Positions 23,342 through 46,700 of a DNA stretch of 64,000 bases are shown piece by piece. Source of the DNA: Imbricaverruca yamaguchii (taxonomy: Eukaryota > Arthropoda > Thecostraca > Neoverrucidae). The stretch spans positions 2,832,501-2,896,500 of the forward strand of contig JAOTOL010001644.1 in NCBI GenBank assembly GCA_034440575.1. The letters are read 5' to 3'. The notes beneath the pieces were generated by a model. The model was not told the origin of the DNA and searched no databases. It saw nothing but the letters and a program-made list of their open reading frames with translations. How positions within the stretch are numbered: the first letter of the stretch is position 1; the number at the start of each line of letters is the position of its first letter. Both the position numbers and the translations under genes were made by a program.

Positions 23342-23636
23342 GACCTGCAGGAGGCGTTCCGGCCGCGGCTGGAGCTCTACAACGTGCAGCTGCAGCCGGC
23401 ATCTCAGTCTGCCACAGCGCACGTGCGGCGGCCGGAGCTGCTGGAGGAGCCGGGCCGGTACTGTGACGTGCGGCTGCCGGCTGCTGCCGGCCCGCTCACC
23501 GTGTCGCTGTCCACCAGCGACGCGCTGCTGTGTACGGCGCGACTGCCGACCTCCTGTACTGACGACGAGCTGACGCGCACCGCTCAGATGTACGGGCCCG
23601 TGCGGTTCGCGTTCGTGCTGCGCTCGGAGACCACCG
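23342..23636 (+). CDS. raver: raver exon A: RRM1 second half and RRM2 first half
   Basis: Acceptor ends ..cctgtcggcag at 23341; the reading frame starts with GAC. The peptide [19 protein letters not shown] covers the end of RRM1 helix 1 and strand 2; SATAHVRR fits strand 3, the PELLEE segment helix 2, and PLTVSLS strand 4. RRM2 then opens with the RNP2 motif in [10 protein letters not shown] and ends in SETTG. Donor G|GTGAGT at 23637 leaves phase 1, matching the next exon. The first third of RRM1 must lie in an exon further left that I could not identify. The donor is the first of four tandem copies (23637-23760), and a 21-bp minisatellite ends only about 25 bp before the acceptor. Confidence 0.85.
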
Positions 23637-26600
23637 GTGAGTGCGGTGTCGGCCGCTCAGAGACCACCGGTGAGTGCGGTGTCGTCAGCCCAGAGACCAC
23701 CGGTGAGTACCGTGACGGCAGCCCAGAGACCAACGGTGAGTGCGGTGTCGGCAGCGGATAGCGGGCGGTTGTGGGGTTACAGGGGCTGTCAGAAATTGTG
23801 GGGGGTTACCGGGAGCTGCCTGGCATTACAGGGTCACCGGAAGATATCTGGCGTTGTAAGGTCACCGGGGTTGTCCAGGACTGTTGGGTCAGGGTCGTTG
23901 GGAACTGATGAGGATTGTGAGGCGAACTACACGGGCTGTGATGGGCCAGTGTTTGCTGTGGAGTGTCGATTAAAACGTTTGTTGGAGGTTTGGTCGAGAT
24001 AATAGTGCGGTCGATTTTTAGTCGACTCGTGTATAACTGCCTCCTTGTCCGTGAAGTGTATTTCTATGCTAGTTTCAATAACGAATTAGTATGCCCTTTT
24101 GTATTGGCTACACTTTTTTAGAACGATAATGGTGCTTTGAACATCTTTTGGTGTCCCAGTCATCTTTTGGTGTATCATCTTTTTAACTTGTGAAGTACTC
24201 GAAATATACGTGCATGATTTCTCGCGGGCAGAATTAATTTACGATTTCGCAGGTTCCGTCAACTTGCTTGTCTTCGTAATCGAACTTAGTTGTGCAAATG
24301 ATGTTCATCAAAATGGACGCTAAATGATCACGCTTTGGTCGAAGCGCCATTAAACTCATAACTAACAATGTTCATAAAGACATAAAGACATAAAAGGTTA
24401 GTGCAACTATGAGCCACAAGGGCCCTTCTTGGTTGCACTCTGTACACTGAACCAGTTGCCCACCAAATCTGTCAATCAGCCCTCCCTGTAATACTGAAAA
24501 GCAAGCCCTCTGTTCTTATAATGATTGTCTATGCTGTTTTTTTTAAGATGTTCAATGTGCTGCTACTGACAATGTTTTCTGGCAGCTGGTTCCAGTGTTC
24601 TACTACCCTGTTGGTGAAGAAAGTCTGCCTTAAACTTGTTCTGCTGTGGTTAACTTTAATTTTGAATTTATGACCTCTGATTGCATCATTTCTGTTAAAT
24701 TCAAACATGAGATGAGATCTCCTCTCAGCCTTCTATATCTAAGTGAAAACATATTCAATTTCTTCAATCTTTTCTCATATGCCAGGTTGCTTATACCATT
24801 AACCATTTGTGTAGCCCTCTTTTGTACTCTCTCTAAAAGCTAACACTCTTTCATAGCTAGGAGCAGTATTCAACAATTTCTGATAAGCTTGGATGCAGTA
24901 TTCAAAATGTGGCCTGACATATGCACAGTAAAGCTTCCTGATGACTTCCTCACTTCCGTATGATACATTCCTGTTTATTGCCCCGCGCATTCTCAGTGCC
25001 TTCTTCCTGACTACCTTGGTCCGTTCTGATGCCCCCAATTTTGTGTTTAGAATAACACCTAAATCCTTCTCCTGTTGAGTCACTGATAGCACTTGGTCAC
25101 CCATCAAGTATGGAGCCTTGCTATGCTGCTTACCTACATGCATGATTTTGCACTTATTAAAATTAAATTTCATTTGCCATTCTTCGGACCACTTCACAAG
25201 TTCGTCTAAGTCTTTTTCAGCGAGATATGGTCATTTTGACCTGTTATTGCCCCAAAGACCTTTAAATCATCCGCCAATTTCCCAACTTTACTGCTTAGGC
25301 CACTTTCAATGCTATTTACAAATATAATGAACAGTAGTGGCCCCAGTACTGACCCCTGGGGGTCTCCACTAAGAACATTTTGCCATGATGACTTTGTACC
25401 ATTTAGCATCACTCTTTGCTGTCTTATCTGAAAGCCACAACTCTATCCATTTTAAGATGCTACCTGCAATACCATGGGCCTGAAGCTGTATCATTAACCG
25501 TTTATGGGGTACCTTGTCAAAGGTCTTAATAAAGTCAAGATATGCTACATCAATCTGATTTCCATGATCAAATTGTTCTGTGGCGAAGTTAAAAAAGTCC
25601 AAGATATTTGTGAGACACGACCGTCCTTTCCTAATCCCATGTTGAGTATCTTGAATCAATCTGTTTCCTTCCAGATAACTAACTATTCTATCCTTGATAA
25701 TTGATTCGAGTACCTTGCAGACTAGGGATGTGAGACTTACTGGCCTATGGTTTTCAACTTTCCCTCTTTCTCCTTTCTTGAAAATAGGAACTACATTTGC
25801 CCTTCTCCAATCGGTTGGAATTTCATTTTGTGAAACTGATCTACAAAATATTATACTAAGTGGAAATACCAGTTCCTTTTCAGTTTCCCGCAATACCATA
25901 GCATAAATTTCATCAGGTCCTGCTGCCTTGTTTGAGTTTATTTTCCTGATATGATTGTAAAGAACATCACTATCAATGAAATCAACATCATTTATCAGAT
26001 CACATGTCCCTGAACTATGGTGTACGATCGGCAGATTGGTCATATCTTCCAATGTAAACACTGATTTAAACTGCTTGCTCAGCTCCTCAACCATCTCACT
26101 ATCATCACCCAATGTAGTTCCGTCTACTTCCAGTGGACCAATTGTGAAATTAAACGAAAGTGCTTATCAGATAAAAACTAATGAAATATAATCAGAGAAG
26201 TAATGGCTAAACACCTATCCACAGCTTAGACTAGTGTACTGCCCTGTTCTGCAACGACTTGTCTGGAAAGCTGGAGCTCCAAACGGACGTGCTTCCACCG
26301 TGACACCTGGCGGCAAACTGTTCATCAAAGTTCATCAATGCACATCAGTGTCGTCTTTTCCCAGACCAGGTATCCAGGGCCTTGTCATGTGTGACTTTGA
26401 CCTTCCATCGTCCAAGAACGTTGGTTTGTGGTAGTTGAATTCGAGGCATTTTTTCTTGGATCAAGATACCTGTGCAAATTCCTTGGAACAACCAAAGTGC
26501 GTTGACATTCGCAGTGGTCGACAAAATCGGGTAGTCTGTTTCAGTCGTTGACGGTACCAAAACGGATCCGGCATATCTGCTACATCACGCTAAAGACTGC

Positions 26601-29600
26601 ACCACACCTTGATCGGGCCGTCCAACGGCTCGCCGCAGACCTGACCTCCAGTGACCCATCCCAGGAACTGATCGGTGTTGGTCGCCTTGACCTTGACCGG
26701 AGCCGGACCGGTCGTGCAGCGGCGGTGGCCAGACTGACTTGTCAGCTGGCGGCGGGTGTGTGCGTCACGCGGAGTTATGAGCCCTGAGCCCTGATCCTCG
26801 AACCACGAACCACGAACCACGAACCACGAGCCACGAGCCACGAGCCACGAGCCACGAGCCACAAACCAAAAACCAAAAACCACGAACCTCGAGCCACAAA
26901 CCACGAGCCTCGATCCTGGGGACTGGGCCCCTAGCCACCCAGCCGCCGGCGACGCCGCCACCCGATTCCACATCTGACAAGAGCACCCGCCATCGCCGCC
27001 CACCAGCAGGCTCCAATATCAGGCCACGATATTGCGTCACGGCCGCCGCAGATGATCATTGGCTGTCTTTATGACCTGAGGCGGATATATTTCACCGGCT
27101 GATTAGTCGGTCAGCGCCTGCCGCGGCACCTCGCACCTCGCGCTGGGGCGACACTGGATCGTGTCGCGCCATTACCCGGCGGCGGCGACTGCCGACGGTG
27201 CGGCCGGTACGCCTCGTTTGGCAGACATCCGCTCTGATCCTCTGGATGTGACCCGAGGCTGGGCCGGGCCGGGCCGGGCCGCTGAAGCCGTCTGTGCCGG
27301 GCGGCGGCGCAGTGTCGCCAGCAGCTCTTCACACTAAACAGCGGCACACGCTGTGATGGATAGGGCCCGGGACGCAGTCACATTGATGTGTCGTGACGTC
27401 GCACAGAGAAGCTGTGACGTAGTCGCACGGAGGTGCCCTGACGCAATCACACGGAGATGCCATGACGCAGTCACACGGAGGCGTCGTGACGCAGCCACAT
27501 GGAGGTGTGACGTAGTCGCACGGAGGTGCCCGGGGGTGGAACAAATAGGCACGGAGAGTCAGAGTTATAAACGGAGTGAGGCGATACATGTGATTTAACC
27601 AGATTTTGCTAAATCTTGGCGTTCTTGGGGGAAAATCTAACGTCTAACTGTGCGGACTATTTTGACACTGCTATGGCACGATGAGGGCTATCCGCGCTGC
27701 GACAAGGGATCGGCCAACTAATAGCCGAACTGATTAGGATGATGCAGGACTGACAGCAACAATGAAGTAAGCTTTTAACAGAACAGGATGGAATAGGCAG
27801 TACGTTCACAATAGCCAGTCGGACGGATGTCGAGAGAGGAGTGGACGGTGATCCAACCCACGCGATCCTGTACTTCGTGTCTGTCGTATCCCCGCGGCGG
27901 CTGTTTCCGGACGCCCCGAGCCTACAATCAAGTCAACGCGGAGGGTTACGGCCACTACCAGCCAATGCTGGTGAACGGAAGGGAGACATTGTGAACAAAG
28001 TACAAAGGCGGTGTGGACCTAAATGCTAATTTCGCCGCCGGTGCCCGGTGCTCGGTGCAGCGAAGTCGTGCCGACGGGTCACTGCGCCGTTTGCCGCCGC
28101 ATCTGATATCACATTCCGTCTGGCCGGGCATCGGGCGGCAGATCTCGGGCACCTGCGTCACACAGCCGGGTCACGGCGGTCAAAAGGTCACACAGCCGGG
28201 TCACGGCGGCCACACGGTCACACCCGACCGGGTCACGGCGGTCACGGTCACACCCGACCGGGTCACACCCAACCACCGTCTGCTTACGGGCGGGCATCAA
28301 AACACGCTTATCTAGTGCTTCCTCAGCGGCCAGCAAGGCGTACGGCTTCGTGATGCATGCCAGCAAACGCACTGACCCAGTGCCTCCCCCAGCGGCCAGC
28401 AAGGGTTACGGCTTCGTCATGTACGCCAGCAAGGAGGTGGCGTTCCACGCGAAGAACCTGCTGGACGGCAAGATGATGGGCGGCTCGGCCATCATCTGCG
28501 ACTGGGTCGATCCGACCCACACAACCATCAGGTCAGCTGCCCGCAGGCCACGACCCAATCCACACCACCATCAGGTCAGCTGACCGCAGGTCTCGACCCG
28601 ACCCACACCACCATCAGGTCAGCTGCCCGCAAGTCTCGACCCGACCCACACCACCATCAGGTCAGCTGCCCACGGGCCACGACCCGACCCACACCACCAT
28701 CAGGTCAGCTGATCGCAGGTCTCGACCCGACCCACACCACCATCAGGTCATCTGCCCGCAGGCCACGACCCAACCCACACCACCATCAGGTCAGCTGCCC
28801 ACGGGCCACGACCCAACCCACACCACCATCAGGTCAGCTGATCGCAGGTCTCGACCCGACCCACACCACCATCAGGTCAGCTGCCCGCAGGTCACGGCGC
28901 AGGCCGGCTGTCTTCTGCGTGACGTCATACGTCGGACGCGCGACTGTTGCTCAGCGCGCAGCCGCTGGAGCGTCTCCTTCTGTCCGTCGCTTGTCTCTGT
29001 CTCTCTCCATCTCGTTTCTCTCGCTCTCTTTCTCTCCCTCTCTCTGTCTGCGTCTTTCTGCCTTTGAAGCTGTCCGATTTGCGCTCGTTTCTTTGTTTCA
29101 CTATTTGTTTGTGCGGTACGTCGTGAAGACGGCCAGTCGGCGCCAGTCGGCAGCTGGCCGACTGGCCGGCTGGCCGCTTCCGGTCTTGTTCGGCCGCTGT
29201 TTCCTCTATTCCTGTAGTTAACGCCCTTGGCCTCTGTGGTTTTCAGATCTTTGCATTCCAAGTGTTTGCACGTCGCGAACCTGCCGGACGGCTATAAGAA
29301 TATGGCCGAATTTAGGCAGCTATTCTCTTGCATACAAAACCCTCCTTATTGCCAAGTAAGTATACGATTTTTTAACTTCCTGAGCTGCTTATGTTGTAGA
29401 GTGCTTGATATTGCTTGGACATGTGTTGCCATCATTCAATGACGATTCTGCGTCTGTGTCTGCGTTCGCCAATTTTTGGCAGTGTGCCGCTAGCGAATGA
29501 GCTGCTTTTCGGACAAGTGTACATTTTGTCTCTTGGCTTCTTGACAACTGACTATTTTGAATGCTTGCCCCTAATTCGATTCGCTCCAGTTGGAACTGAC

Positions 29601-29858
29601 CCACCACCTGGCAGCTCTTGTGTCTCTCTGTCTCTGTCTTGTGGCTGATCGGCACACGCCTCGGCGGCCGTCGACTGTGTGGTGAGCCGGGAGGTATCGC
29701 GCCTGTCTGGCCGCCTCGTCAAATCTGACAGCCGGGAAAATCACCGCAGAACTGATAAACCGCCTTTCTGCCCACTGCGTTCATATTGATCCTGTCCATC
29801 GCCGACTGATATGTTGACCGAGGATTGTGTCGTATTGCTGCCTTAGCCATCGTATACT

Positions 29859-29889
<31 letters not shown>

Positions 29890-32800
29890 CGCGCGCGCGC
29901 GCGGAGTCCTGGGCAGTTCTTCAGAGGAAGGCCTGATTATATTTAGCCGGTAGCATACTATTAGTTATGGGCGCTAAATGACCAAACATGGTCGATGCGT
30001 CCCAAAACTCAACCGGCCAACGAATGGTGGGCATGCGGGAGAATGACTGTGTGCGCCAATCCCCGTACTGGAGACGTGTCTGCGCCACTGAGTACAGTGT
30101 GGTGGCGGCGGCGGCGACTCACCGCTTCCGATTCAGCTTGGCGTGGTGGGCGGCGCACGCTGGCCGGAGAAACATGACGTCGCTGTTCTTCGCCTGGTTG
30201 TGGCCGACGCATTCTCGCGCTCGCCGCCGGGTTGTTTGTGAAGCGGCAGTAACGAGTGACAAGTGGGCCAGACGCACCGACAGAACACAGGTGTGGCCTG
30301 AGTTCTGTTTATCCGCCGTATACACTGGGTGATTGACGAGCCGGCGCGACGGTGGTGCCGCCGTGCGGCTGCGCGCGACAACAGCTCGCTGCCGGCGCGT
30401 CTGCCGGCGACGAGGGATCCGTGGGCGAATCCGCGCTGTGTCATCCGTTCGCCATCCTCTCTCCACCAATGAGCCGTTCTGTCGCCACTTTCCCCTGCAT
30501 ACTCACCATTCTACCGTCAATCTGCCACCAACGGACCAGCCTCTGCTGACTACCACCCGGCGACCATCTGTTAGCCACAGTCGATCCTTCCATCCTACCT
30601 GTCATCCCCAACATCGGAGACACTGAACATCCGTCACTTAGACACTCAGTTGTTTCACAGTTCAGGCACTCAGTAGCCTCTCACAACCAACCGGACGACT
30701 CGAGACTCCATGAGCTCGCGCTTAGCAGATGAGTTGTCGCTGTATGGCGGCGGGGCAGGCGTTCATGCACCGGGACAACTTGAGCCTGCCGCGTTCATCA
30801 ATATTGGTCGTCCTGTGGATGGGGCTCGTCAGGGCGACGGGTGCCGCGTCGGTGTCGGCGGCGGCTCGCCCGCCGTGTCGCAGCCGACAGCCGAGTGGTC
30901 CCCCGGGGATCGCCGTCGACAGTGACGCGGCGACTTGGGCGGCCGTCGAGAGGGGCGCGTCGGCGGGCCGGCCCGGGTGTCGGCCGCCCCATGTCGGCCG
31001 CCCCGGACATATCGATTCCGAACACTCGGCAATCAGCGGCCTGATCCGGCGCCGTCGGTGGCCAGGGAACCGCTCGGCCGGAGAACTGGCCGCGAGCACG
31101 AACGCTGGCCGCCGGGACGCTCCGGAGCGCTGTTAAGTGCCCCGAGGGCTGATATACCGGGCCTGCTGCTGGCCAGCCGGCCGAGGACGCAGTCGGCCTG
31201 CGGTACTCAATGGTGCGGCTGTCGGACGTGTGGCGCCACAGCCGCGGGCTATCGGACGTGTGGCGCCACAGCCGCGGGCTGTCGGACGTGTGGCGCCACA
31301 GCCGCGGGCTGTCGGACGTGTGGAGCCACACCCGCGGGCTGTCGGACGTGTGGCGCCACCGCGGGCGTCGGACGTGTGCACAGCCGCGGGCTGTCGGACG
31401 TGTGGCGCCACAGCCGCGGGCTGTCGGACGTGTGGAGCCACAGCCGCGGGCTGTCGGACGTGTGGCGCCACAGCCGCGGGCTGTCGGACGTGTGGAGCCA
31501 CAGCCGCGGGCTGTCGGACGTGTGGAGCCACAGCCGCGGGCTGTCGGACGTGTGGCGCCACAGCCGCGGGCTGTCGGACGTGTGGCGCCACAGCCGCGGG
31601 CTGTCGGACGTGTGGCGCCACAGCCGCGGCTGGGTTTCTGTCCGGGCCGTCAGCTGTAATTTATTTGGGTATTCACTCAGGAGGGCCGACGCCGGGTCCC
31701 CTATGCCCCCTTCCCCCACACGAGGTGTCGACTCGCACACCCGTGGGAAACAACATTTGCCGTGAGCGTCGTGCGGCGGTCGTAGCAGGTCGGCGCTCGA
31801 CATGGCTGCTGGACCGGACTAGACTGCTGCAAGTGGGCGGGTCAAGCTTGTTACAAGTGGCCGTCAGCGGCTTCTCCTGGTCATGACTGCTGTGGCGTGG
31901 GCGGGGATGTATCGGAATGATAGTGCACGCATGTCGGCGGACTGCGCAGACAGACCGACAGAACAGCGAAAGGCCGATCGTGGTCGCCCACATTGCTCTG
32001 CGAATCGTTCCGTGTGCTTCGAGCGAACGGAGGGGAATCAGTGGGCATATTGGGAAGGCATGCAAGCAAGTCTGTCTGCGGGTTAGCGGTGGTTACAATT
32101 CGCCTGTAAAGCGGCAGCATCTGGTCTGCGGGTTAGCGGTGGTAGCATTTCGCTTAGAAAGCGGCAGCGTGTGGTGGGTAGCCGAGTGGTCCACGCTGGT
32201 GCATCGCCTATGTCGGGAAGATAGTCCCAGCATGGCGGGGCTGGTGGGACCCGGACCATGGCGGGGGCACGGCCCGGGATGCTGTCGTGTGCGACTGCTG
32301 CTGACGGATCAGCTGCCACGGGCCTATGATGACGTCACCAACCGATGTGCCTGACCATTACCAGGTCAAGACCATGGCACCACTGACCGATGTACCTGAC
32401 CATTACCAGGTCAACACCATGACACCACTGACCGATGTACCTGACCATTACCAGGTCAACACCTGACACCACTGACCGATGTACCTGGCCATTATAACGA
32501 TTACACATTGCACTGACTTACAAGGTCGACATGGCAACGAAGACGGCCGGTTCGCTGTCCTCCAGCTGGTGCTGGTGCTGGTGCTGTTCGGTAGAGTTGC
32601 CGGTTTGTCTGTTTTCAGCCGGCCGGGCCGATAATGCCGCTCGGCGCCAGAACAGAGAGCGGTGCGTTTGCCAGCGTCTGGCGCGGTTTGAGTGTTGTCT
32701 TTGTGTGGCTGTCCTGTGCTGGTCCGCTCCGCTCCGGTCTGCTCCGGTCCGCTCAGGTCCGCTCAGGTCCGCTCAGGTTCGTCACCTGTTCGGACCGCGT

Positions 32801-35800
32801 GACCGATTGGCTTTGTCAGCGTCTCAAGCGCGCTCATTGTCCCTGCTGATCACTCATTGTTTCGCCGACTGCCAGTTGAACTCATCGTTGCATCCGCCTG
32901 AAGTTCCGTTTCCACCTTCCACTCCATTACTGCCACGATTCCGATATTGCTATCGCTCGGCACTATACAATGCCAGTTGAGCACTTTTCCACGTAGTGTA
33001 TGATCTGCAGCCAACCATTGTGCAGTGTTGCCCACGGTGTTCCATGCGTGTGGTCTTGTAAATCTGTCCCGTCTTGCCCCTGGGAAATCATACACCCGTT
33101 CTACTTCACGGTATATGGAAATCAGCATGTTAGGTGGTCACGCCGTTCTTTTCCCGTGGATCCGCGTCGCCAATTCATTCGTATTGCTATTATTGGTATC
33201 CTAGCATAGCTTCACCTGGAATTATGTTGGTACCACCCAAAGCAAGGGAATCAATGAAATTTGGACCGGTAGCGAGTTCACTTTTGTTGCGGGAACGTGG
33301 TCGGTGCGGATGTGGAGAACGGCCCGAACGTCGGCTCTGGGTTTCCGTCTCGTCGTCGGTGGGTGTCCACTCTGTTTTCCACCCAGTCCCGGCGTCCGGC
33401 TGTGATTCCGTGTCCGGTGATTAAGCGGCGAACGAGGTCGGCGGGCGGCCGCCCCCGCCGTCTGGTGCTCAGTTGAGTCCCGGCCCGGCGGACCCCGCGC
33501 CGTCATTAGGGTCGAGCGGCGCCGGCCGAACGTGACCCGGGAGGCGATGCCACTGCTCGCTAGCTGCTCAGCTGCCCGCCGCACACGCTGCAGCCCGCCG
33601 TCGGGCCGGCCAAGATTGATTGTGGCCCCGGTAATTTCGGTCCAGTGACCTTTTCGAGCCGTATCCAGTTCACCATGGGCTGTCGACAGCCACCGGTCGT
33701 GAGGAGATAGCCGTCTGAACTTTTGGCGGCCGAGTGATGGCGACAGCTGGCCCGCCATCGCCACCTATTTCGGCCTCCGCCGCCTGTATCAGAGCTGAAT
33801 CGTGTGACTGGGTGGTCCTTGGCGTCGCCCGTCGCCTGTGTGATGGTCGGGAGTATGTTGGAGACGCCTTCGATGTCTGCCCTGGCGACGCTGACACCCC
33901 TCAGATGGCAGTCTGACACAGCCGCCTAACCGCTGCGGTGTCGTTCCAGATCGCGCTGAAGAACGGCTCGCCGCAAGACTGGGGTCTGGTTGAGTTCATG
34001 TCGGCCGACGTGGCCGAGCGCACGCAGCAGCGCATGCAGGGCCACGCGCTGCGCGGCTCGCGGCTGCAGGTGCACTTCTGCATGCCGGGCGTGCGCGCCA
34101 TCGACATCTACATGCGGCTGCTGAACGATGCGGCGGCGCCGCGCTCACGAATGGCGTTGCTGCCCGACCCGCCGGCGCCGGCCGTCTACCAGCAGATGAA
34201 GAGCCTCAGCCAGCAGAACCCGACGTTCGCGCAGAACCTGCAGAACATCGTCACGTCGCAGATCTCCGAGCTGCAGCAGGAGATGGCGCAGGCGCAGGGC
34301 GGCTTCGCGGGGCCGCCGCCGCCGCCGCCGCCGCTGCAGCTGCCGCCGCCGCCTCCGCCGGCCGTGTCTGTAGCAGTGTCGCCGCGACCACCGCCGCCAC
34401 CGCCGCAGGCCATCCTCGGTCAGCATATGCTGTTCCCGGCCGGCATGATGGGCCTGCTGCCGCCGCCGCCGCCTGGTGGCGCACACCTGCGCCATTTGGC
34501 GCCGCCGGTACGTACAGAGCCCGACACGCCTGCCTGCTGTCACCGGGCCGACCGTACAGAGGCGCGCCTCTGCGCTGACTGCATGCATTGCCCTGGCTGG
34601 TGGCCGTCGCCTGCGACTTGGCTTGTGTCGTGTGTCGGTCGGGTGTGAAGGACCAGCTGCGGAGGGCACACGTGCTGTGTGGTGGCAAATGGTTGCATGT
34701 TTACCGAGCGCATCATTAGGCGATCAGCGCTTACCTTTGTGGCGTACGATTCGTCAGTGCTAGTCGGCATGCGACAAACGAATTAGGTGGATGGAAAGAA
34801 AAACTCGCCCAAGAACGCTCTACAAATTAGTGCTCTAGAACGTAACAGGAATATAACGTCTTGGCTGATAGCTTTAAGTAATTTCTCAAATATTTTCTGA
34901 ATCTCGTCTGTCCCATAATCATGCTCCGCGTAAAGCAGTTTGTTTGGTTCTTACTCACCTCCATGTCCTGGTGACACAATTTCTTTCCGAGATATAGCAC
35001 AGTGGGCTCAACTTGCCTATTGTACCACTAAATATTTTAGCAGAATTGTAGCCAGACGGCAGCTGATAGTTTGTGTACATGGTCACCACCTCTGGGCATG
35101 GTTGGAAGATCACCAGAAAAGTTGTTACACATTGCAAGTTAGGGTGGAATGCTTTGAAAACGTCGTTGCAGGAGCCAGCTTTGGTGTAGCCACTGCAATA
35201 TTATATTATCCGGACATTGTTAATTTCTTATGTTTCACCAGTTTGATCAGCAAGGCGAGAACTTTGAACAGAAATGCGCTTCCAATTGTAGAAATGAACT
35301 TCAACGAAGACATAAACAACTAAATGCTTTGCAGCCACCCACGTATGCGAAGTCCCAAACCATGTGTAACATGGAACATTCCTTCCAGGGTAATACACAC
35401 GCCGGTCTATTTCCCAGCTGATCAGTTGGCGCCACTTTGGCCGACGTACTTCACCAGAAGTGACTGAAAAACTCACCGGCGGATAACCATCCAGGCCGCA
35501 GCACTGTGGTGCTAGCTGCTCGTTGCCATGATCCAACTGGCGAAGAAGTCTGGCTTCTGGGCTGACCTGAGGGAGGGGAGAGGCACAGCCGCCGTCAGCT
35601 GATGGATGGAGTCGGAAATTAGCCCGCGTACGAGCGTGCGACGGCACTGCCTCTGTATGGCTGAGGGGGGGGGGACCGGCACAGCGAACTGGCCTGTGTT
35701 ACCCCTGCTGGCCAACGGCAGACGATGGGGCGAACTGGCCTGTGTTACCCCTGCTGGCCAACGGCAAACGATGGGGCGAACTGGCCTGTGTTACCCCTGC

Positions 35801-38800: not shown

Positions 38801-41800
38801 GCTATGATATGCTATATAGTACCAGTTTATAGCATAGGTGTTTATATCGTTATCGTCTACATCGGTATCCCCAAATTAGGTACCTTTCAAAACACGCAAA
38901 ACAGGATGCACGCAATTGTCTGAAAACCGGGTTTCCAGGACATTAGCGTTACTTCCATGCCGATTTCGACATCCTGCTGCACTCGTTTCGATATCCCACG
39001 CCTAATGAGAAATAATTAGTTTAACACTGCTCGTCAGGGCCGTGTCGGGGTGTCTGTGCGGGCTGTACCGCCGGGAGGCCAGTGCGGGGGTACCGTGCCA
39101 GCGGCCGACACTCGCCTGGGAGCGGTGCTGATGGGCGCACGGCAGTGGCCCGGTACCGGTGGGCGCCGCGGGCACTCACGCCTTGTCACTCTTCCCGTGG
39201 ACATTGGCGGCTCGATGATGTGGCGGCATGCACCTGTTACAAGTGACAAGACCGGTCGAAATCTTCTGGTTGAGCCGGATGAGATGTTCAAAGTGTCCGT
39301 CCTGGGGTGACCTTTCACAAGGCGAACTCAAGCTGGGCCTTTTAAATATGAGTGGAACCATGTGCCTTGTCAGGTTAGGTGTAATTTTTTTTTTCTTCAG
39401 TGTTTGCTCGGCTTTTGTGATATCAGGAAGTGGTCCTGAGCGTACGTGAAAGCCCACAATAGGCTCTGCTCTCCAGGCTCTGCCGTATTACATGATTAGT
39501 CGTGAATTGGATTCCAGGGTCTTTGAATGTGTCAATAGTTGGCTTGTAGCCAGCACAGTTGCCCAATAGCTGTCGTATTGGCGCCTGACGAGGTGCCTTG
39601 TCCGCTTAGCGGGCATCCCTGCGGGCGTGGTGCCGGTCGGCTGCCGAGCTGAGTCAGCGCTCGTGGCGGCGACAAGCCACGCAGCTCTGTCGAGGAGTGA
39701 CCGCCGTACGTGTGTTGCCATCGGTGGCCCCCGGGAGACGGCCGCCGGCGACCGGGGTGCCGCGGCGGGCCGTGCAGCCGACACTGTGCAGTGTTGGCGG
39801 CCGGCCCGACACGACTTCCGCTGACGGCTGGGTCCGGCTCCTGGCCTGGTCCTGCCGAGCCTGTGGCAGGCTGGCCGGGCACTCACAGGGTGCGGCCGTG
39901 GCGCCAGGTGGCGATCACGTCCGACAGAGTTGGCTGGTTTGCCTGCTGCCTTGTTTACCAGCGCGGCTCCGGTGACTATGCGAGTTCCGTGCCGAACGCA
40001 GCGTCCGGTGAAGGCGGGGCGAAGGCGAGCGAGATGCGTGCAGTGGTGGTGAGCTGCGGTTAGGACTAGGAGTGATCGTGGCCGCGGGGCGGCAGCCGAG
40101 CTGCGGTCTGGACTGTGGTCGGGACTCGGGACAGGAGTGTTGTGGTTGCCGAGCTGTGGTCGGGACTGGGGAGTGTTGTGGCTGCCGGGCTGTGGTCGGG
40201 ACTGGAGAGTGTTGTGGCTGCCGTGCTGCGGTCGGGACTGGGGAGTGTTGTGGCTGCCGAGCTGTGGTCGGGACTGGGGAGTGTTGTGGCTGCCGTGCTG
40301 CGGTCGGGACTGGGGAGTGTTGTGGCTGCCGAGCTGTGGTCGGGACTGGGGAGTGTTGTGGCTGACGGGCTGTGGTCGAGACTGGGGAGTGTTGTGGCTG
40401 CCGGGCTGTGGTCGGGACTGGGGAGTGTTGTGGCTGCCGAGCTGTGGTCGGGACTGGGGAGTGTTGTGGCTGCCGGGCTGTGGTCGGGACTGGGGAGTGT
40501 TGTGGCTGCCGGGCTGTGGTCGGGACTGGGGAGTGTTGTGGCTGCCGAGCTGTGGTCTGGACTGGGGAGTGTTGTGGCTGCCGTGCTGCGGTCGGGACTG
40601 GGGAGTGTTGTGACTGCCGAACTGTGGTCGGGACTGGGGAGTGTTGTGGCTGCCGGGCTGTGGTCGGGACTGGGGAGTGTTGTGGCTGCCCAGCTGTGAT
40701 CGGGACTGGAGTGTTGTGGCTGCCGGGCTGTGATCCGGACTGGAGTGTTGTGGCTACCGAGCTGTGGTCTGGACTGGGGAGTGTTGTGGCTGCCCAGCTG
40801 TGGTCTGGACTGGGGAGTGTTGTGGCCGCCCGGCGGCCCGAAATAATTTTCCGATTCGCCGACCCCGATTCCGATCCGATTTCCGATTGACCGGTTTCAA
40901 ATAAGTGATTTGTAGCGATATCGACCTCGGATGTCCAACCCGTCGTAAGTAATGCGTCTACAGTCCCCGAATTTATCAGCCCGGCGTAAACATCTATATT
41001 GTTTAGCGTCGCACTCGGTGGACACGATTATGTTTACGACCCCACCTTCCCACTTCAATTGCGTGTTATTCCTCAATCAAAACCTCACTTCATTGTTGCT
41101 GTTGGACCGCTTCTGTCATGGTGTCCTACTACATTCTACTACTTACCACAGTTTGACTATTATTTGGCCAATCTCTTGACGCGGCGCGAATAGCCCTCAT
41201 CGCGCGATAGCGATGTCTAAGTCGTCTATGCAGTTAGACGTTAGGTCCTCCTTCCGCGCTGCGACAAGTTCGCGACATGCCGAAGCAGTGGCCAACTGGC
41301 GCCAATATCGGCTTCTGCTTCCACAGCTCCGGTCTTGTCGCCGGCTGCAGCGATTGCTCTGCCGGTCACCGATACTGACGTCTCGCCTGCAGCTGTGGTC
41401 TGTTGCAGCAGTATTTCCTGTCGGGCCCGCCGCCCCAGACGCTGACGTCTGGCCTGTGGTCTGTTGCAGCAATACTTCCTGCCTGGCCTGCCGCCCCAGA
41501 TGCTGACGGCCGGCGCGTTCGCGCCCGGCCAGCTGCTGCCTCCGGTGTCAGCGGCAGCCGGCTTTGGACCGGCGCAGCTGCTTCCAGCCGTGTCTGCAGC
41601 GGCCGGCTTTGGACCGGCGCAGCTGCTTCCGGCCGTGTCTGCGGCGGCCGGGTTCGCGCCCGGACAGCTGATGCCGGCCGCCTCCATGGCCGGCGGCGCG
41701 CTGATGAGCTACGCGCCGCAGACGGTGTCGCTGCTGCCGCCGCCGCCGCTGGCCGCCGCCGACCCGGTGACGCAGGTCAGCGACGAACTGCAGAACACCA

Positions 41801-42207
41801 TCTCGTCACTGATGAACAAGGCGCAGGGCCTGCACCAAATCCTAGCGCTGGTCAACGGCCAGAAGGGTGCGGCAGCGGCGCCGGCGACCGCCGCCGCCGC
41901 TGCCGCCGCGGCGGCTGCGGCCGCGCTGCCTCCCACATCAGACGACCAGAGCCAGTACGTGAGCTCGCTGCTGTCGGCGCTGCAGTCGGCGCAGTCGAAG
42001 GTGGCGGCGGCGCCGGGCGCGGCCGCGTTCCCAGTGCCGAGTCGGCTGGGCGGCGGCTCGCCCGTCACGCCGCAGGGCCAGAAGCGCAAGTACCACCACC
42101 TGCTGCCGTCGCCGGAGCCGTCCCCAGAGACGGAATTCGTCGGCCAACACTCACAGGGTCTGGGCGGCCACTACGCTGAGACGTACCTTAAGAGGAAGCG
42201 CTACTAG
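23342..42207 (+). CDS. raver: raver-type ribonucleoprotein PTB-binding protein (gene span, 5 exons, N-terminus missing)
   Basis: Spliced exons 23342-23636, 28393-28531, 29247-29355, 33950-34507 and 41470-42207 give 1839 nt, 612 residues plus TAG. Order: second half of RRM1, RRM2 (RNP2 [11 protein letters not shown]1 KGYGFVMY), RRM3 (RNP2 CLHVANLP), a glutamine- and proline-rich linker, an Ala/Gly/Pro-rich region with a 15-residue repeat, and a C-terminus reading [19 protein letters not shown]. Three tandem RRMs and this tail are the signature of RAVER1/RAVER2, nuclear/cytoplasmic proteins that bind PTB and act as splicing co-regulators; that function is family knowledge. Exon phases (1, 2, 0, 0) all match. 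The exon with the first strand and helix of RRM1 was not found upstream. No AATAAA was seen between the stop and 43.6 kb. The last residues resemble RAVER2 more than RAVER1, but an invertebrate probably has a single orthologue. Confidence 0.9.
23610..23760 (+). repeat. 33-bp tandem copies of the raver exon A donor
   Basis: The string gagaccaccg|gtgagt-like recurs with exon-side ends at 23636, 23669, 23702 and 23735, spacing exactly 33 bp (11 codons). All four retain GTGAGT. Confidence 0.95.
24309..24367 (+). mobile_element. ultra-short retroposon (about 59 bp) next to the LINE 3' end
   Basis: Contains atggacgctaaatgatc and gaagcgccattaaactcata, ends ctaacaa. The 8-bp string atgttcat stands on both sides (24301-24308 and 24368-24375). 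Confidence 0.55.
24376..26165 (-). mobile_element. decayed CR1/Jockey-like non-LTR retrotransposon (3' part of reverse transcriptase ORF)
   Basis: On the - strand three open segments in different frames (26112-25369, 25412-25206, 25197-24799) carry the non-LTR reverse transcriptase order: NKAAGPDEI, the PIFKKG and NHRPVSLTS blocks, GRSC, a degraded [24 protein letters not shown], and LADD where the catalytic Y/FADD is expected. A CR1-like end ([19 protein letters not shown]) follows. Frameshifts between segments and the changed box show it is dead. The 5' part is missing. The 3' end carries a short tail of repeated TTATGTCT-type octamers, as in CR1 elements. It lies in the raver intron after exon A. 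Confidence 0.85.
26795..26915. repeat. heptamer-type array (ccacgag / ccacgaa / ccaaaaa)
   Basis: Run of gaaccac and gagccac heptamers. Simple repeat in the raver intron before exon B. Confidence 0.85.
27365..27540. repeat. diverged minisatellite, about 25-26 bp unit
   Basis: Units contain gtgacgcagtcacacggagg with variants gtgacgtagtcgcacgg. Confidence 0.7.
28150..28275. repeat. short tandem array of gggtcacggcggtcac units
   Basis: Units such as cacagccgggtcacggcggt and cacacccgaccgggtcacgg alternate. Ends about 50 bp before the first acceptor copy of raver exon B. Confidence 0.75.
28327..28392 (+). repeat. upstream degenerate copy of the raver exon B acceptor and RNP1 start
   Basis: cttcctcag|CGGCCAGCAAGGCGTACGG mirrors the true exon start 66 bp further on. 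The copy would encode KAYGFVMH in place of KGYGFVMY, losing the RNP1 glycine and last aromatic. It is open and in frame into exon B. Confidence 0.9.
28393..28531 (+). CDS. raver: raver exon B: RRM2 RNP1 exon
   Basis: Acceptor tgcctcccccag|CG; phase 1 in, phase 2 out. The peptide reads [16 protein letters not shown], then [11 protein letters not shown] and IICDWVDP, which is the RNP1 strand, helix 2 and strand 4 of the second raver RRM. Splicing to exon A gives [12 protein letters not shown], close to the vertebrate raver layout. Donor ATCAG|GTCAGC at 28532. A degenerate copy of the acceptor and first codons lies 66 bp upstream (28327), in frame and open, so a 22-codon longer exon is possible. 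The donor is repeated eight more times downstream every 43 bp. Confidence 0.88.
28490..28892 (+). repeat. 43-bp minisatellite made of the raver exon B 3' end and donor, 9 donors
   Basis: atcag|gtcagctg (one copy gtcatctg) has exon-side ends at 28531, 28574, 28617, 28660, 28703, 28746, 28789, 28832 and 28875, a strict 43-bp ladder. Each unit includes cgacccacaccaccatcag, the last bases of the exon. Confidence 0.97.
29247..29355 (+). CDS. raver: raver exon C: RRM3 RNP2 exon
   Basis: Acceptor ctctgtggttttcag|A completes an Arg codon with exon B (phase 2), then [18 protein letters not shown] and [12 protein letters not shown]. The block LHSKCL.V..LP..Y and the ending YCQ are highly characteristic of the raver RRM3 start. 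Donor CAA|GTAAGT at 29356, phase 0. Neither junction of this exon carries tandem copies. Confidence 0.9.
29858..29903. repeat. (TG)n(GC)n tract
   Basis: About 23 bp of alternating TG followed by about 23 bp of alternating GC, an uninterrupted purine-pyrimidine alternation able to adopt Z-DNA. Confidence 0.9.
29966..30022 (+). mobile_element. ultra-short retroposon, probable copy without clear duplication
   Basis: Contains atgggcgctaaatgacc and gatgcgtcccaaaactcaac. Same 5' start as the other copies; the 3' tail is altered (ccggccaacg). Confidence 0.45.
31200..31640. repeat. minisatellite, 30-bp unit, about 14 copies
   Basis: Unit tgtcggacgtgtggcgccac then agccgcgggc; two unit types (ggcgcc and ggagcc). 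30 bp is a multiple of three, so all frames that lack a stop in one unit stay open. Confidence 0.95.
32330..32500. repeat. minisatellite, about 45-bp unit, 3-4 copies
   Basis: Units contain accgatgtacctgaccatta and ccaggtcaacacc. Confidence 0.85.
32501..33949 (+). other. end of the raver intron before exon D
   Basis: Contains a short 10-bp ccgctcaggt array near 32740-32780 and unique sequence; no further exon recognised. Confidence 0.4.
33950..34507 (+). CDS. raver: raver exon D: RRM3 second half and proline-rich linker
   Basis: Acceptor gtgtcgttccag|ATC, phase 0. The first 60 residues complete RRM3: DWGLVEF stands at the RNP1 strand, [16 protein letters not shown] is strand 4 and the conserved raver exit. 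Then [20 protein letters not shown] and a Gln-rich helix-forming stretch, followed by two poly-proline runs. [11 protein letters not shown] vaguely resembles the S/G-I/L-LGxxP PTB-interaction motif of vertebrate ravers but does not match it strictly. Donor CCG|GTACGT at 34508, phase 0. The CCG/GCC runs make this a likely place for length polymorphism. Confidence 0.88.
35683..36175. repeat. minisatellite, 46-bp unit, about 10.7 copies, with 4-unit higher-order repeat
   Basis: Unit core gaactggcctgtgttacccc; starts at 35701, 35747 and 35793 give 46 bp. The variant tgttaaccct occurs at 35881 and 36065, exactly 184 bp (4 units) apart. Confidence 0.95.
37972..38310. repeat. minisatellite, 34-bp unit, about 10 copies
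   Basis: Unit gtgcgtccagtgccgtaccg then gggccacatctggc. Highly homogeneous. Confidence 0.95.
38564..39029. mobile_element. hAT-like MITE, copy B
   Basis: Shares the family's internal landmarks (the gtggaataca..accactt block near the start, atcgacatc..ccaaggaagtat, the tcgacatcctgct and acgcctaatgag end). It ends tttaacactg, the exact inverse of the cagtgttaaa start seen in copy D. Flanks cccgtcag and ctcgtcag match at 7 of 8 positions. No coding capacity. Confidence 0.6.
40110..40835. repeat. minisatellite, 36-bp unit, about 20 copies
   Basis: Unit gggagtgttgtggctgccgg then gctgtggtcgggactg. 36 bp is 12 codons, which explains the long open frames on the + strand. In the last raver intron. 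Confidence 0.95.
41365..41530 (+). repeat. 61-bp duplication of the raver exon E acceptor and exon start
   Basis: tgtggtctgttgcag is found just before 41409 and just before 41470, each followed by ca-ta-ttcctg and the cgccccaga block. A partial third copy (ctgacgtctcgcctgcagct) lies upstream of the first. 61 bp is not a multiple of three. Confidence 0.9.
41470..42207 (+). CDS. raver: raver exon E: last coding exon
   Basis: Acceptor tgtggtctgttgcag|CAA, phase 0. The exon encodes [15 protein letters not shown], then about 3.5 copies of a 15-residue repeat ([19 protein letters not shown]), a poly-alanine run, a basic patch GQKRKYHH and the conserved end [19 protein letters not shown], stop TAG 42205-42207. 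Only this frame contains the conserved tail. An identical acceptor motif 61 bp upstream (exon would start at 41409) leads into a different frame that stays open to 42179 and would replace the tail. Confidence 0.9.
41525..41690 (+). repeat. coding 45-bp minisatellite in raver exon E
   Basis: About 3.5 units of 45 bp encode [19 protein letters not shown] 15-residue repeats, keeping frame. Confidence 0.9.
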
Positions 42208-43595
42208 CGGCGCCGGCCGGCGCCCGCTGTCGCAATGTCCGCACGCCCTTCGTGTTCAGCTGTCCGTCTGTTGTTGGTGGCGCACGACCTGTGCCGGGCG
42301 CCAGTGTGGGGCGAGGTGCGCCCGTACAACTCATGTGTTCGTCTGTCGAGGATCGCCGGGGCCCTGTTCGTATGTCGACGGCTCCTCCCCGGGTCTGTCG
42401 TCCCGTGGGGGACGGGGTTCGGCCAGTATCGTATGTTAGTGGGTGATGCGCCATCTCGTGGTGGCGGTCGCTCCATGTGACCTTCGTTTCTGTTGCGACA
42501 TGTGAGAAGTAGGTTTTCACGATGCCAGTGTTTCCATCAGTAGGTTTGCCGCGGCAACACTAATCCAGGCGAGTCTCTGATCACGTGGCGCAGTAAGTAT
42601 GCCAAGTGGATCGCACCACACGTTTTTGTTTGGTCGTAAGATCGTGGGTTCGAATCCCACCGCCGGCGGGTCCGTCGAGCCCACCCGCAACCAAACAAAT
42701 GTCTACCTACATACCCCACGTTTTTGTTAAATTGTCTCTGTACTCTACGCTTCCATTCTGTATATACGTCTCATTTTACTGTATATGAACGGTACCTCGA
42801 GCAGCTATTACCAGTTTTGCTGGCTTCTCCGTTGTGCTATGACCCTTTCTGTGTACATATTGTGCATTATGTAGCCCTGGGGCATTTTATCTGGCTGCTG
42901 GTTTGTTTTAACTTTTAAACGTCTTGTTTGACGCTAGCTTGTTGACACGGTGTATGTGCATGATCTCATCGTTAGGTGGGGGTGAAATTTGTTGCAGGGC
43001 ATTTTTGTTGGCAGAGCGCGCGTGCGGCCTAGCCCGGCCGAGCCGACGGGCAGCGCGCCGCTCATCAGAGGACCAATCTCCGTGTGTCGTGTGCTGTCGC
43101 GTCACGCTGCTGTGAATTCTGCTTCCGGTGTGCGAACAGCGCACGTGGGCTCCCGCCGACCGATGATCAAACGCCGACTTCATATACGGAGAGCCCGGTT
43201 GGCACGTGCTGGCGCGACTGACGAGAGCGAGTTCTTGTGCCGTTTTACCGGCCCGCAGTTTTTTACCGATAAATTGGCGGGTTGGCGGCGGCCGGCCGCC
43301 CGCCAGCTCCAGCTGTACATATGTTGCCGTCCACAGATCGTCGCGCGCCGGCGGAGCCACGCCCACCGGCCAGATGGCAGCGTGCGCGCCAACTGTGCCG
43401 GCGTGCCAATATATCGATACACATACTCAGACCCTGCTGCCGCCTCTCTCTCTCTCTCTGCTGTCTACGCGCCCGACCTGGATGGCTGGGGGTGCGAGTG
43501 CGTCCTCCCGGTCGCCCAGCTCCCCTGCCTGAGTCGCCCGGCTCCTCTGTATGAGGCTCTCGGCTCCCTTCAGAAACAGCAGCTCGCCGGTCAGT
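42208..43595. other. convergent intergenic region between raver and wdr4
   Basis: Must hold the raver 3' UTR. It contains the truncated SINE at 42631 and a CT run near 43445. A 245-codon + strand frame (42989-43726) is antisense to wdr4 exon 8 and is taken as a chance frame. Confidence 0.5.
42631..42716 (+). mobile_element. 5'-truncated tRNA-derived SINE with 12-bp target duplication
   Basis: Keeps the T arm with B box (gtgggttcgaatcccacc) and a tail ending ctacctacatacccc. Flanked by cacgtttttgtt at 42619-42630 and 42717-42728. The A-box half of the tRNA is missing, so it is not a tRNA gene. Confidence 0.65.
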
Positions 43596-43600
43596 TTATT
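43595..43600 (-). promoter_or_regulatory. AATAAA polyadenylation signal overlapping the wdr4 stop codon
   Basis: The - strand reads GAATAAACTG, so the hexamer AATAAA contains the stop TAA. Cleavage 10-30 bases further would put the mRNA end near 43565-43585 and leave almost no 3' UTR. I see no other AATAAA close by; actual use is inferred. Confidence 0.5.
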
Positions 43601-43792
43601 CTGGCGACGTCCTCAGCTTTTTGGCCAAATGCTCTTCCGCCAGTACTGGCTTTTCGTTCGCATCGCCGGCCGCAGTTTCTTCCGCATCCTTTTTCTGGCC
43701 GTCGAGTCTGTCTTGCTTTCTGCTGAGGTAGCCGGAGACATTGTCGAACCATTGCTTGAACAGCCAGTCGACCGCTTCTAGCTCGAACGACC
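43596..43792 (-). CDS. wdr4: wdr4 exon 8: C-terminal exon
   Basis: Acceptor gcctcgcttgcag|GG, phase 1 in. Peptide SFELEAVDWLFKQWFDNVSG, then YLSRKQDRLDGQKKDAEE, ending KKLRTSPE and stop TAA (43598-43596). The L.K..FDNV..YL..K..R block is the conserved WDR4 C-terminal helix with its lysine-rich tail. The stop codon is embedded in an AATAAA hexamer. Confidence 0.93.
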
Positions 43793-46700
43793 CTGCAAGC
43801 GAGGCATCCCCGTTACCAATAGCACTGCTCCCACATGCATGGCCATTGACATTCGTTCACCTGGGAAATTTGGGGACAGCGCTTTTAAAACACATACGGA
43901 GGCAATCGTGCGGCGAATGCACCCAACTTCAAATTTCGACATTGCGCATAACGAAGCTCACACAATACGCACACCACTAAGCAAATATTTACTGCCTTGT
44001 ACACAATTATTCCCGAGGCAATGGATCAACCTGCCTGTTTCAAGGCAGGATAATTTTCACATGATGAAATGAATTATGAATTCGTGACGCCATAAATTAC
44101 CCTGCGACTGTGGATGATGGGCAGTGATAAATTATTCGCGAAATAGAGTGGAATTTACCACTTTCTGAACACTCAATCGACATCCTTCTTCAAGAAGTAT
44201 GGGCATCATGCTCCTGGATATGAAGCATTCGTGTCTCCTTTCTAACAATATCTCGTTTATGAAGTATAGCTCTTCCTAAATTATAAACCTCAAAATAAGT
44301 GATGAAGGTCCAATCATAATTACCTACACCATCAACCCGAATTTTAGTCTGAAAAACATCAAAAGCATTTTAAATTACACTACTTACGCGTCAAATTTCG
44401 ACATCCTGCTATGCTCGTTTCGACATCTCACACCTAACGACAAACCAATATTTTAACCCTGATGATGGGAGCCGATAACCAGCCGATATCACCACACGGT
44501 GGCAGGCTGGCAAAATACACCCACACACACGCGGGGCCGATAACGTACCCTGAGGCTGTGGGGACGGGGGATGGGGGCAGGGTGCAGGTAACGTATCCTG
44601 CAGCTGCGGGTACAGACTGGAGACGGCTGTGGGGAGTGCATGGTAGGGAGGCGGTAACGTACCCTGCAGCTGCAAGTACAGCCTGACAGCAGCTACAGGG
44701 AGAGGAGGGCAGGGAGGCGGTAACGTACCCTGCAGCTGCGGGTACAGACTGGTGGCGGCGGCAGTGAGCGGCGACGTCGGCAGCAGCCTCAGTCGGCCGC
44801 CGTCGCCGCTGGTGGTGTAGACGGCCAGTGGTGAGCTCGGCCCGGGCCCGAGCAGATATAGCCGGCTGCCGGCGGCTGCCACCGCCCACGGCACCCAGTC
44901 CAGCTGTAGGGCGGGCCGAGCCGACAGACTGTCGCCGGCGACGGCCAACACCGGCAGCCGACTCCAACTGTCGACACAACACAGGACACAACACAGATGT
45001 GAACACAGGACACAACAGATGTGAACACGGAACACACACAACTGTCAACACAGGACACAACACAACTGTCAACACAGGACACAACACAACACACAGCTGT
45101 CAACACAGGACAACGCAACTGTCAACACGGGACACAACACAACTGTCGACACAGTACACGCACAACTGCCAACATGGGACACAGGACACAACACACAACT
45201 GCCATCACGGGACAATACAACTGTCAATACGGCACAGCTGCGACAGGTGCCGAGGCACAGGACAGTTGTGGCAGGTGCCGAAACAGGAAATAATTGTGGT
45301 CAGGGCTGGACTGATATTTTGGTACTCTGGGCTTCCAGCGAATAATTGTCTTGCCGTCCACTCAGGAAATAACATTTTGTTTTGTACACCAGGAACTATG
45401 GTTGTAGTTATCAACTTGGGGATGCCTCGGTATGTTTTGCATTTTTGGAACGATAGTGTGGTATAGGTTGGTTGGTTATTGGAGTTTAGGGGCGCTGCAT
45501 AGTGTGGTATAGCAAGTTCACCAAAACAAATCCAAGAGCTTGAGAAGCAACACTAATTTTCTTAATTCTAAGCCAACAGTTTTGAACATTTGTATCACAG
45601 AACACCACGCGTGCATGATTTCATTACTAAAGAACGTTATTCAGTCTTCCAATGATTGAGACTACATATATCTGGAGAGGACAATGTTCTGGATTACAAG
45701 GCTGCAGTGTAAGGCTGACATTCTCGACGCTGGTCGTGACAAAAACTGATAGTGAGAACGTCGGTAGCGCACATATGCTATATAAAACCGGTGGGGGTTA
45801 GTAAGGTATCCGGCACGTGAAAATATAACATTGTAATGATCCAACACCGCGATGGGCTGCCGGCATCAATACAACACAAACCAACAAAAACAAGAACAAA
45901 AAGCATGGGAGGCCATTAGCCACGACGAACCATTAGCCACCTCGATCGATCTTGGTGTCCAATAGCATGGCAGACCAATGCAGCAATACCAGCGAAGCCC
46001 GACAAAATAACGCATCTGCACTACCGGGAGCTGCTCGACGAAGCCGACAAATGAGCTGCGCGGTGATTTGTGGCGTGCCTGATGACGTGCTCCTGCACGG
46101 TGCAGTGGGCACAGTGCTGATCGGGAACTGCGCACTGGCTCCATTCACACCGGCCACGAGCCCGATCTCCCCGGCCAGGACGCCGCCCCCCGACCAGGAC
46201 GCCGCCACCCCCCCGACCAGGACGCCGTCCTCCCAGGGCGAGACGCCGTCCTCCCGCGCCCCCAGTCCTGGGTGCTACTCGCTAGCCTGATACCGGTGTT
46301 TGCGCGTGTTATGGCGAACATGCTATCCCCCCCCCAAACGCAGCACAGCCGGACGTCACTCGGTGGAATAGCCGAGCCGTCCTCAGTTGCTCGCGTCGAC
46401 GGCGATGCTATTGGCTGGCGCAGAACGTGCCTGTTGCTGTTTGTGCCGCCTCCGGCCAGCCGGGAGCTCGGCTGAAGTGTAGTCGCCGTTCGCAATACAC
46501 AACTCAAGGAGACGCTCGTGTCCAACCGGCACTGTCTGCTCTCACGCCGATCTGGCACATGCAGCCCGGCAAGGTCACGGCGCAACCCAGCGGGTATGGC
46601 GGGCGTGGTGTGTTGGCCCTGGTTGTTGGGGGAGCCCGCCAGCGCAGCGGGTGGCGGGCCTGGTTGTTGGGGAGAGCCCGCCAACCCAACGGGTATGACG

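Follow-up and report, generated by a model that had tools for sequence, protein, structure and literature searches.

Minisatellite arrays at splice junctions of raver, wdr4 and a gene on a second contig of the barnacle Imbricaverruca yamaguchii

We analysed a window of 64,000 nucleotides (C1411:2832501-2896500) from the genome of the barnacle Imbricaverruca yamaguchii (767,457,503 bases in 1430 contigs), in which two neighbouring genes, raver and wdr4, have splice junctions lying within tandem arrays of exon and intron sequence. Raver spliced from the window shares 88% identity with the Amphibalanus amphitrite 'ribonucleoprotein PTB-binding 1-like' protein over residues 70-300, the RNA-binding part, and spliced wdr4 shares 60% identity with an A. 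amphitrite wdr4-like protein; the structure matches are Raver-1 (E 4.5e-35) and human WDR4 (E 3.9e-42), respectively. The frames are open after splicing for raver exons A-E and wdr4 exons 3-8 (e3-e8) and are colinear with A. amphitrite P0001 and P0030. Exon 2 of wdr4 was added to the model later with approximate bounds, and exon 1 is unplaced; the junction total is n=22. A search across the window for 5' exons of raver found none, and a coding-score scan of the window gave no additional gene judged trustworthy. Minisatellites with a period of 10 or more make up 21.5% of the window and 0-58% of nineteen other 10-kb stretches. The exons concerned, with the arrays at their edges as called by Tandem Repeats Finder (TRF), donor scoring or self-comparison, are as follows.

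23342..23636, + strand: raver exon A, reaching the middle of RRM2 (open spliced frame, colinear with P0001)
23627..23755, + strand: array at the raver exon A donor, 33 bp x 3.9, 10 exon bases in the array (TRF and donor scoring)
28301..28432, + strand: duplication at the raver exon B acceptor, 66 bp x 2, 26 intron and 40 exon bases per copy (self-comparison)
28393..28531, + strand: raver exon B (open spliced frame, colinear with P0001)
28507..28896, + strand: array at the raver exon B donor, 43 bp x 9, ~23-25 exon bases per unit (TRF and donor scoring)
41393..41508, + strand: duplication at the raver exon E acceptor, 61 bp x 2, 16 intron and 45 exon bases per copy (TRF)
41470..42207, + strand: raver exon E, ending at the stop codon (open spliced frame, colinear with P0001)
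44575..44759, - strand: array at the wdr4 exon 7 donor, 66 bp x 3, 31 exon bases in the array (TRF and donor scoring)
44729..44967, - strand: wdr4 exon 7 (open frame, WDR4 structure match, colinear with A. amphitrite)
44965..45236, - strand: irregular array at the wdr4 exon 7 acceptor, ~24 bp, abutting the exon (TRF)

Five junctions, namely the donors of raver exons A and B, the acceptors of raver exons B and E and the donor of wdr4 exon 7, fall within tandem copies that contain both exon and intron sequence. An earlier note on this DNA had counted six self-copied junctions; the sixth, the wdr4 exon 7 acceptor, is marginal: its array takes in just 3 exon bases, and the junction 24-mer is only 0.67 like its best neighbour. 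Nine CAGs lie upstream of it at irregular spacing, the outermost at the array edge, and TRF gives the period as 100 or 24. At the raver A donor the four donor copies score 9.8-10.0 and their extensions are in frame and open, as is the upstream copy at the raver B acceptor, a duplication that is missing from the TRF list and whose copies have a similarity of 0.79 in the local-duplication test. All copies of the raver B donor keep their GT (score 6.6 in eight and 2.5 in one), the exon-side copy being 84-93% like the remaining copies, and the 43-bp unit is not divisible by three. Use of the upstream copy at the raver E acceptor would shift the frame and then meet a stop. The wdr4 exon 7 donor array, which has a partial fourth copy near 44548, stays in frame without a stop through two units, and in its third copy GT has become AT. 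Apart from this copy and the one weaker raver B copy, donor copies match the strength of the real site, and the exon-side copy is intact in every case read, which fits the suggestion in the earlier note that arrays are tolerated only where an intact site is kept at the exon. Its proposal of independent births is borne out in the five clear cases, because each unit there has its own length and carries its own exon's sequence.

Single junctions are found at wdr4 e2-e6, in the AT-rich part of the window, and elsewhere at the acceptors of raver exons A, C and D, the donors of C and D, and the acceptor of wdr4 exon 8. The view that arrays are confined to the GC-rich part agrees with the single AT-rich junctions and is loose for wdr4 exon 7, whose 2-kb bin is 49% GC. 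The remaining exons are listed below.

29247..29355, + strand: raver exon C, junctions single (colinear with A. amphitrite)
33950..34507, + strand: raver exon D, junctions single (colinear with A. amphitrite)
43597..43792, - strand: wdr4 exon 8, the last, acceptor single (colinear with A. amphitrite)
56263..56429, - strand: wdr4 exon 6, junctions single (colinear with A. amphitrite)
56894..57061, - strand: wdr4 exon 5, donor single, with a 29-bp array beginning 16 bp downstream (TRF and junction test)
58658..58749, - strand: wdr4 exon 4, junctions single (colinear with A. amphitrite)
59607..59800, - strand: wdr4 exon 3, junctions single (colinear with A. amphitrite)
61858..61945, - strand: wdr4 exon 2, bounds approximate, junctions without an array (later placement)

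At the same exon 5 donor, the Pollicipes wuho/wdr4-like protein P0032 continues into a ~14-residue tandem repeat, so that independent arrays have possibly arisen at one junction in two barnacles. The longest window array in the TRF list (41-bp x 63, 48440-51023) lies in the wdr4 intron between exons 6 and 7. In the raver A-B intron, a minus-strand open frame (25369-26163 and flanks) resembles by eye the reverse transcriptase of a non-long-terminal-repeat (non-LTR) retrotransposon; no search was made with it. A second annotated A. amphitrite raver, P0002, apparently has the end of exon B in a different frame and is missing exon C, probably through misannotation.

The recurrence claimed in the earlier note extends to a second gene with the same anatomy. 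The first 60 kb of contig C1000, picked by number with its content unseen beforehand, is tandem-rich (TRF cover 16-60% over six stretches) and contains a gene, located by coding score, with xylosyltransferase-like pieces (XYLT1, E 0.0055; Pfam Branch, E 5.5e-4, under its cut-off) and a weak SUEL-lectin piece (E 0.031). Three of ten pieces matched in Pfam, none above cut-off and one best to the unrelated Metal_resist (1.6e-5), and a Protein Data Bank (PDB) search with three pieces returned nothing relevant. Anchored in TRF arrays are 6 of its 17 junctions, donors as well as acceptors, as in the window:

C1000 X0 donor: 24 bp unit
C1000 X1 donor: 66 bp x 46
C1000 E4 donor: 63 bp x 14
C1000 X4 donor: 109 bp unit
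C1000 E1 acceptor: 102 bp unit
C1000 X2 acceptor: 33 bp x 35

The E2 donor has an extra two-copy duplication, ~104 bp apart, outside the TRF list. Left out of the counts were the X2 donor and the 3' end of E5, which are without a clear splice site, although an array does begin at the E5 end. In L001-L013 the coding-score list held no trusted gene, and segments there were not searched further.

For an array to arise at a junction, its first unit has to span that junction, and the fairer expectation is therefore the chance that a point falls in an end unit. When this edge-unit test was run without GC matching, 5 of the 22 window junctions were anchored against 0.65 expected (7.7-fold, P 4e-4), with 2 of the nine C1000 junctions then defined (0.50 expected, P 0.085) and 7/31 overall (1.15 expected, P 2e-4). 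The probability of a point falling in a birth unit climbs from 1.7% below 50% GC to 12% above 70% GC, and these figures are superseded by a GC-matched test, which gave 5/22 in the window (1.52 expected, 3.3-fold, P 0.019), 6/17 on C1000 (1.65 expected, P 0.007) and 11/39 for both regions (3.17 expected, 3.5-fold, P 4.6e-4). The window P of 0.019 is generous because the finding was chosen for looking striking. The five anchored window junctions include the marginal wdr4 exon 7 acceptor, without which the combined result becomes 10/39 against 3.17 (P 0.0016), and do not include the raver B acceptor, which like the C1000 E2 donor was counted as not anchored in both tests. Six C1000 junction positions were 1-2 bases off in the matched test, which altered 0 calls. 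Near misses were also counted: on C1000, arrays stop within 100 bp of the exon at 6 of the 11 other junctions against 0.81 expected, while the window shows no clear excess (2/17 against 1.28). The C1000 near misses suggest, on one gene's evidence, that the birth rate is raised around exons generally and not at the junction as such. The idea in the earlier note that exon edges are favoured is only partly borne out. The GC-matched excess is on its side; the fall from 7.7- to 3.3-fold on GC matching, the crowding of C1000 arrays into the next 100 bp of intron and the low genome-wide ratio described below count against it.

Junction arrays also differ from others in unit length. Among junction arrays, 7 of 11 have a unit divisible by three; among the 128 other arrays of the window, C1000 and L001-L013, 32 do (Fisher P 0.011). 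Adding the two weak duplications makes this 8 of 13 (P 0.009), and seven of those eight cases remain open if the next copy is used. This count uses the TRF period of 100 for the wdr4 exon 7 acceptor array and leaves aside two coding arrays. Both of the latter lie wholly within raver exon E, with periods of 45 and 15; the 45-bp repeat (41525-41680, ~3 copies, giving 15-residue repeats) is absent from A. amphitrite P0001. Given these periods, and the many junction units that are multiples of three, the filter acting on junction arrays may be the reading frame, and the bias, small as the sample is, suggests that extra copies are sometimes spliced in. Frame-breaking junction units do exist, at the raver B donor (43 bp), the raver E acceptor (61 bp), C1000 E2 (~104 bp) and C1000 X4 (109 bp).

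We consider it probable that these are 'mirage' minisatellites, a term coined for amphioxus repeats that is taken up below, produced by GC-driven tandem duplication around exons and filtered by selection. GC-rich segments, exons and their flanks included, would be duplicated in tandem at random and at a high rate in this minisatellite-prone barnacle genome. When a duplication crosses a junction, one intact junction would stay beside the exon and the rest would fall on the intron side and be spliced out, so that the array could grow without altering the main protein; a duplication wholly within an exon would survive only if short and in frame. With intron-side copies spliced out and in-exon duplications purged, the exon edge would become the innermost site for free array growth. 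The near-identical extra splice sites are probably used occasionally, which would explain the excess of units divisible by three. Exon edges may add a modest extra pull, and a frame filter imposed by weak selection is possible. A bolder version, conceivable though doubtful in our judgement, is that exon edges in barnacles continually supply new splice sites, with births there running several-fold above those in DNA of equal GC, frame-keeping arrays are selected through low-level use, and mirages lead on to new exon segments or introns.

Several results weigh against the preferred reading. Most C1000 exons are ab initio calls (coding score plus splice consensus), and the bounds of X0-X4 were set with the arrays already in view. 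The frame bias was unplanned and is based on 11-13 arrays, and two arrays in ~3 kb of coding sequence are not clearly fewer per base than outside it, leaving purging unsupported by number. In a dynein gene within a tandem-poor stretch (1%), 0 of 10 exon ends had arrays at a similarity of at least 0.80 and two were at 0.79, the sample being one cluster of five exons among 53 matches. A base-coverage test placed 4-5 of 20 junctions in local duplications against 3.1-4.3 expected, with 0.40-0.53 of circular shifts reaching the observed value; this null ignores the need for a junction to fall in the array's end unit, and the coverage null and end-unit null disagree. Finally, a genome-wide count of the donor word AGGTRAGT in tandem, with copies 18-48 bp apart, gave 4097 pairs, 3014 triples and 42634 singles; its control, the reversed word, gave 2412, 1095 and 55168. 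Taking distinct arrays as pairs minus triples (an assumption) and original sites as singles minus pairs yields, by hand arithmetic, 1083 arrays against 1317 and per-site rates of 2.81% and 2.50%, a ratio of just 1.13 with a standard error near 0.05. The effect is thus not large at every donor, and hand arithmetic excludes, for AGGTRAGT at 18-48 bp, that a third of true donors lie in arrays unless true donors are less than ~1% of the words. The test is diluted, since by eye AGGTRAGT matches none of the 18 donors placed in the window and on C1000; with so poor a donor marker, a several-fold excess at real donors is still compatible with this ratio. A second word, RGGTGAGT, gave 7143 pairs and 5281 triples against 4771 and 3314 for its control, or 1862 against 1457 arrays, which are counts and not rates, its singles in 254 kb (18 against 17) being too few for a rate.

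The genome also contains, at C66:21305-25139, an array of >90 units, mostly of 38 bp, each containing AGGTGAGT. Dynein heavy-chain matches at C1340:1405036-1406250 and C1347:1730189-1731385 each lie inside one open frame (4734 and 4283 codons, respectively), which points to intron-free dynein genes or to DNA of a foreign organism in the assembly.

Among other explanations, coincidence, by which some junctions fall inside arrays because a fifth of the non-coding DNA is in arrays, is unlikely. The base-coverage result and the low word ratio suit it, as do a TRF cover ranging from 0 to 60% across 19 sampled 10-kb stretches and the selection of the window for its striking look; it predicts, however, a junction anywhere in the array, whereas the cases read have the junction in the exon-side unit, and it is at odds with the GC-matched excess and its repetition in a second gene. 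We rate lower still a genuine mutational hot-spot effect, with tandem duplications starting preferentially at splice junctions, for instance where exon edges suffer DNA damage during transcription. The 3.5-fold excess left after GC matching would be expected of such hot spots, together with unrelated units at donors and acceptors alike, but the C1000 near misses are better fitted by a broad exon-proximal effect, and the word ratio is low here too.

It is quite improbable that the copies are kept for use, as redundant or alternative splice sites adding in-frame peptide. They do retain the strength of the real site and show the excess of open units divisible by three, and splice-site columns are slightly more conserved than the unit, both in window donor arrays (0.96 v 0.94, 0.99 v 0.94 and 0.94 v 0.83) and at C1000 E4 (0.80 v 0.73, ungapped). 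Set against this are the frame-breaking units, a C1000 E4 extension that begins with a stop, the lost GT in wdr4 exon 7 copy 3, and the lack of added repeat peptide in P0001 and P0030, although these come from another species; an insert in raver RRM2 would, moreover, likely break the fold. Assembly artefact or collapsed haplotypes is the remotest of these explanations: errors are common in tandem arrays, and one amphioxus mirage was aberrantly assembled in a draft genome (excerpts of PMC3087553), but the copies here differ among themselves, the units at many places are unrelated, and the contig spans 3.88 Mb.

Comparison with known systems places the arrays among the amphioxus repeats. An introner-type element was rejected, as the units at the junctions read are unlike one another and each holds its own exon, and as a genome-wide search, made with raver exon B and its edges only, found one locus, the best candidates being itself and its own upstream copy. 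In Rogers-type intron gain, a segment bearing AGGT is duplicated in tandem (Rogers 1989; potato RdRp; a 24-bp case in fission yeast) and both intron ends must come from copies of one duplicated segment (excerpts of PMC4974935). The model and the barnacle share exon sequence copied in tandem along with its splice signals, but the barnacle copies stand at one intron end and show no new intron between them; the model was rejected on inspection of raver, where the donor and acceptor ends of the introns are not copies of each other. An older case is a human minisatellite whose units supply multiple splice donors (excerpts of PMC3618361). That case concerns donors at one locus, whereas the barnacle has many loci and acceptors too. 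The human gene is reportedly 6-16/IFI6.

Amphioxus 'mirages' are tandem repeats across exon-intron boundaries, described in Adh3 and then in the globins BflGb6 and BflGb9 and troponin C, with PGBD5 likened to them; they occur at 5' and 3' boundaries, have units that differ by locus, keep AG/GT in many but not all units, are unstable in length, with haplotypes that differ in copy number, have a boundary copy that escapes homogenisation, leave regular splicing undisturbed and have been proposed as a path to intron gain (excerpts of PMC3087553 and PMC3902484). Judged by sequence, the barnacle arrays are not new in kind. Their units contain exon and intron sequence at five window junctions and in the C1000 gene (the wdr4 exon 7 acceptor being marginal), they occur at both 5' and 3' boundaries with locus-specific unit lengths, and every donor copy of raver A and B retains GT, which is gone from the third wdr4 exon 7 donor copy. 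In the open-licence literature no paper joining barnacle, minisatellite and intron was found, a looser search around crustacean minisatellites and splice junctions gave one paper, on prawn lectins, and mirages were described only in lancelets in those parts of it that were found; a dense crustacean set suggests a link with minisatellite-rich genomes and not a lancelet oddity. Each array would offer a natural test of spliceosome choice among near-identical sites and of intron gain by duplication, and should the surplus of unit lengths that are multiples of three hold up, the genome itself would give evidence that selection sees the extra sites. Unlike the amphioxus examples, those described here come from a crustacean, occur at several junctions of a gene in each of the two regions and reach ~46 copies, and their GC-matched excess and frame bias have been measured, in the sequence of one assembly.

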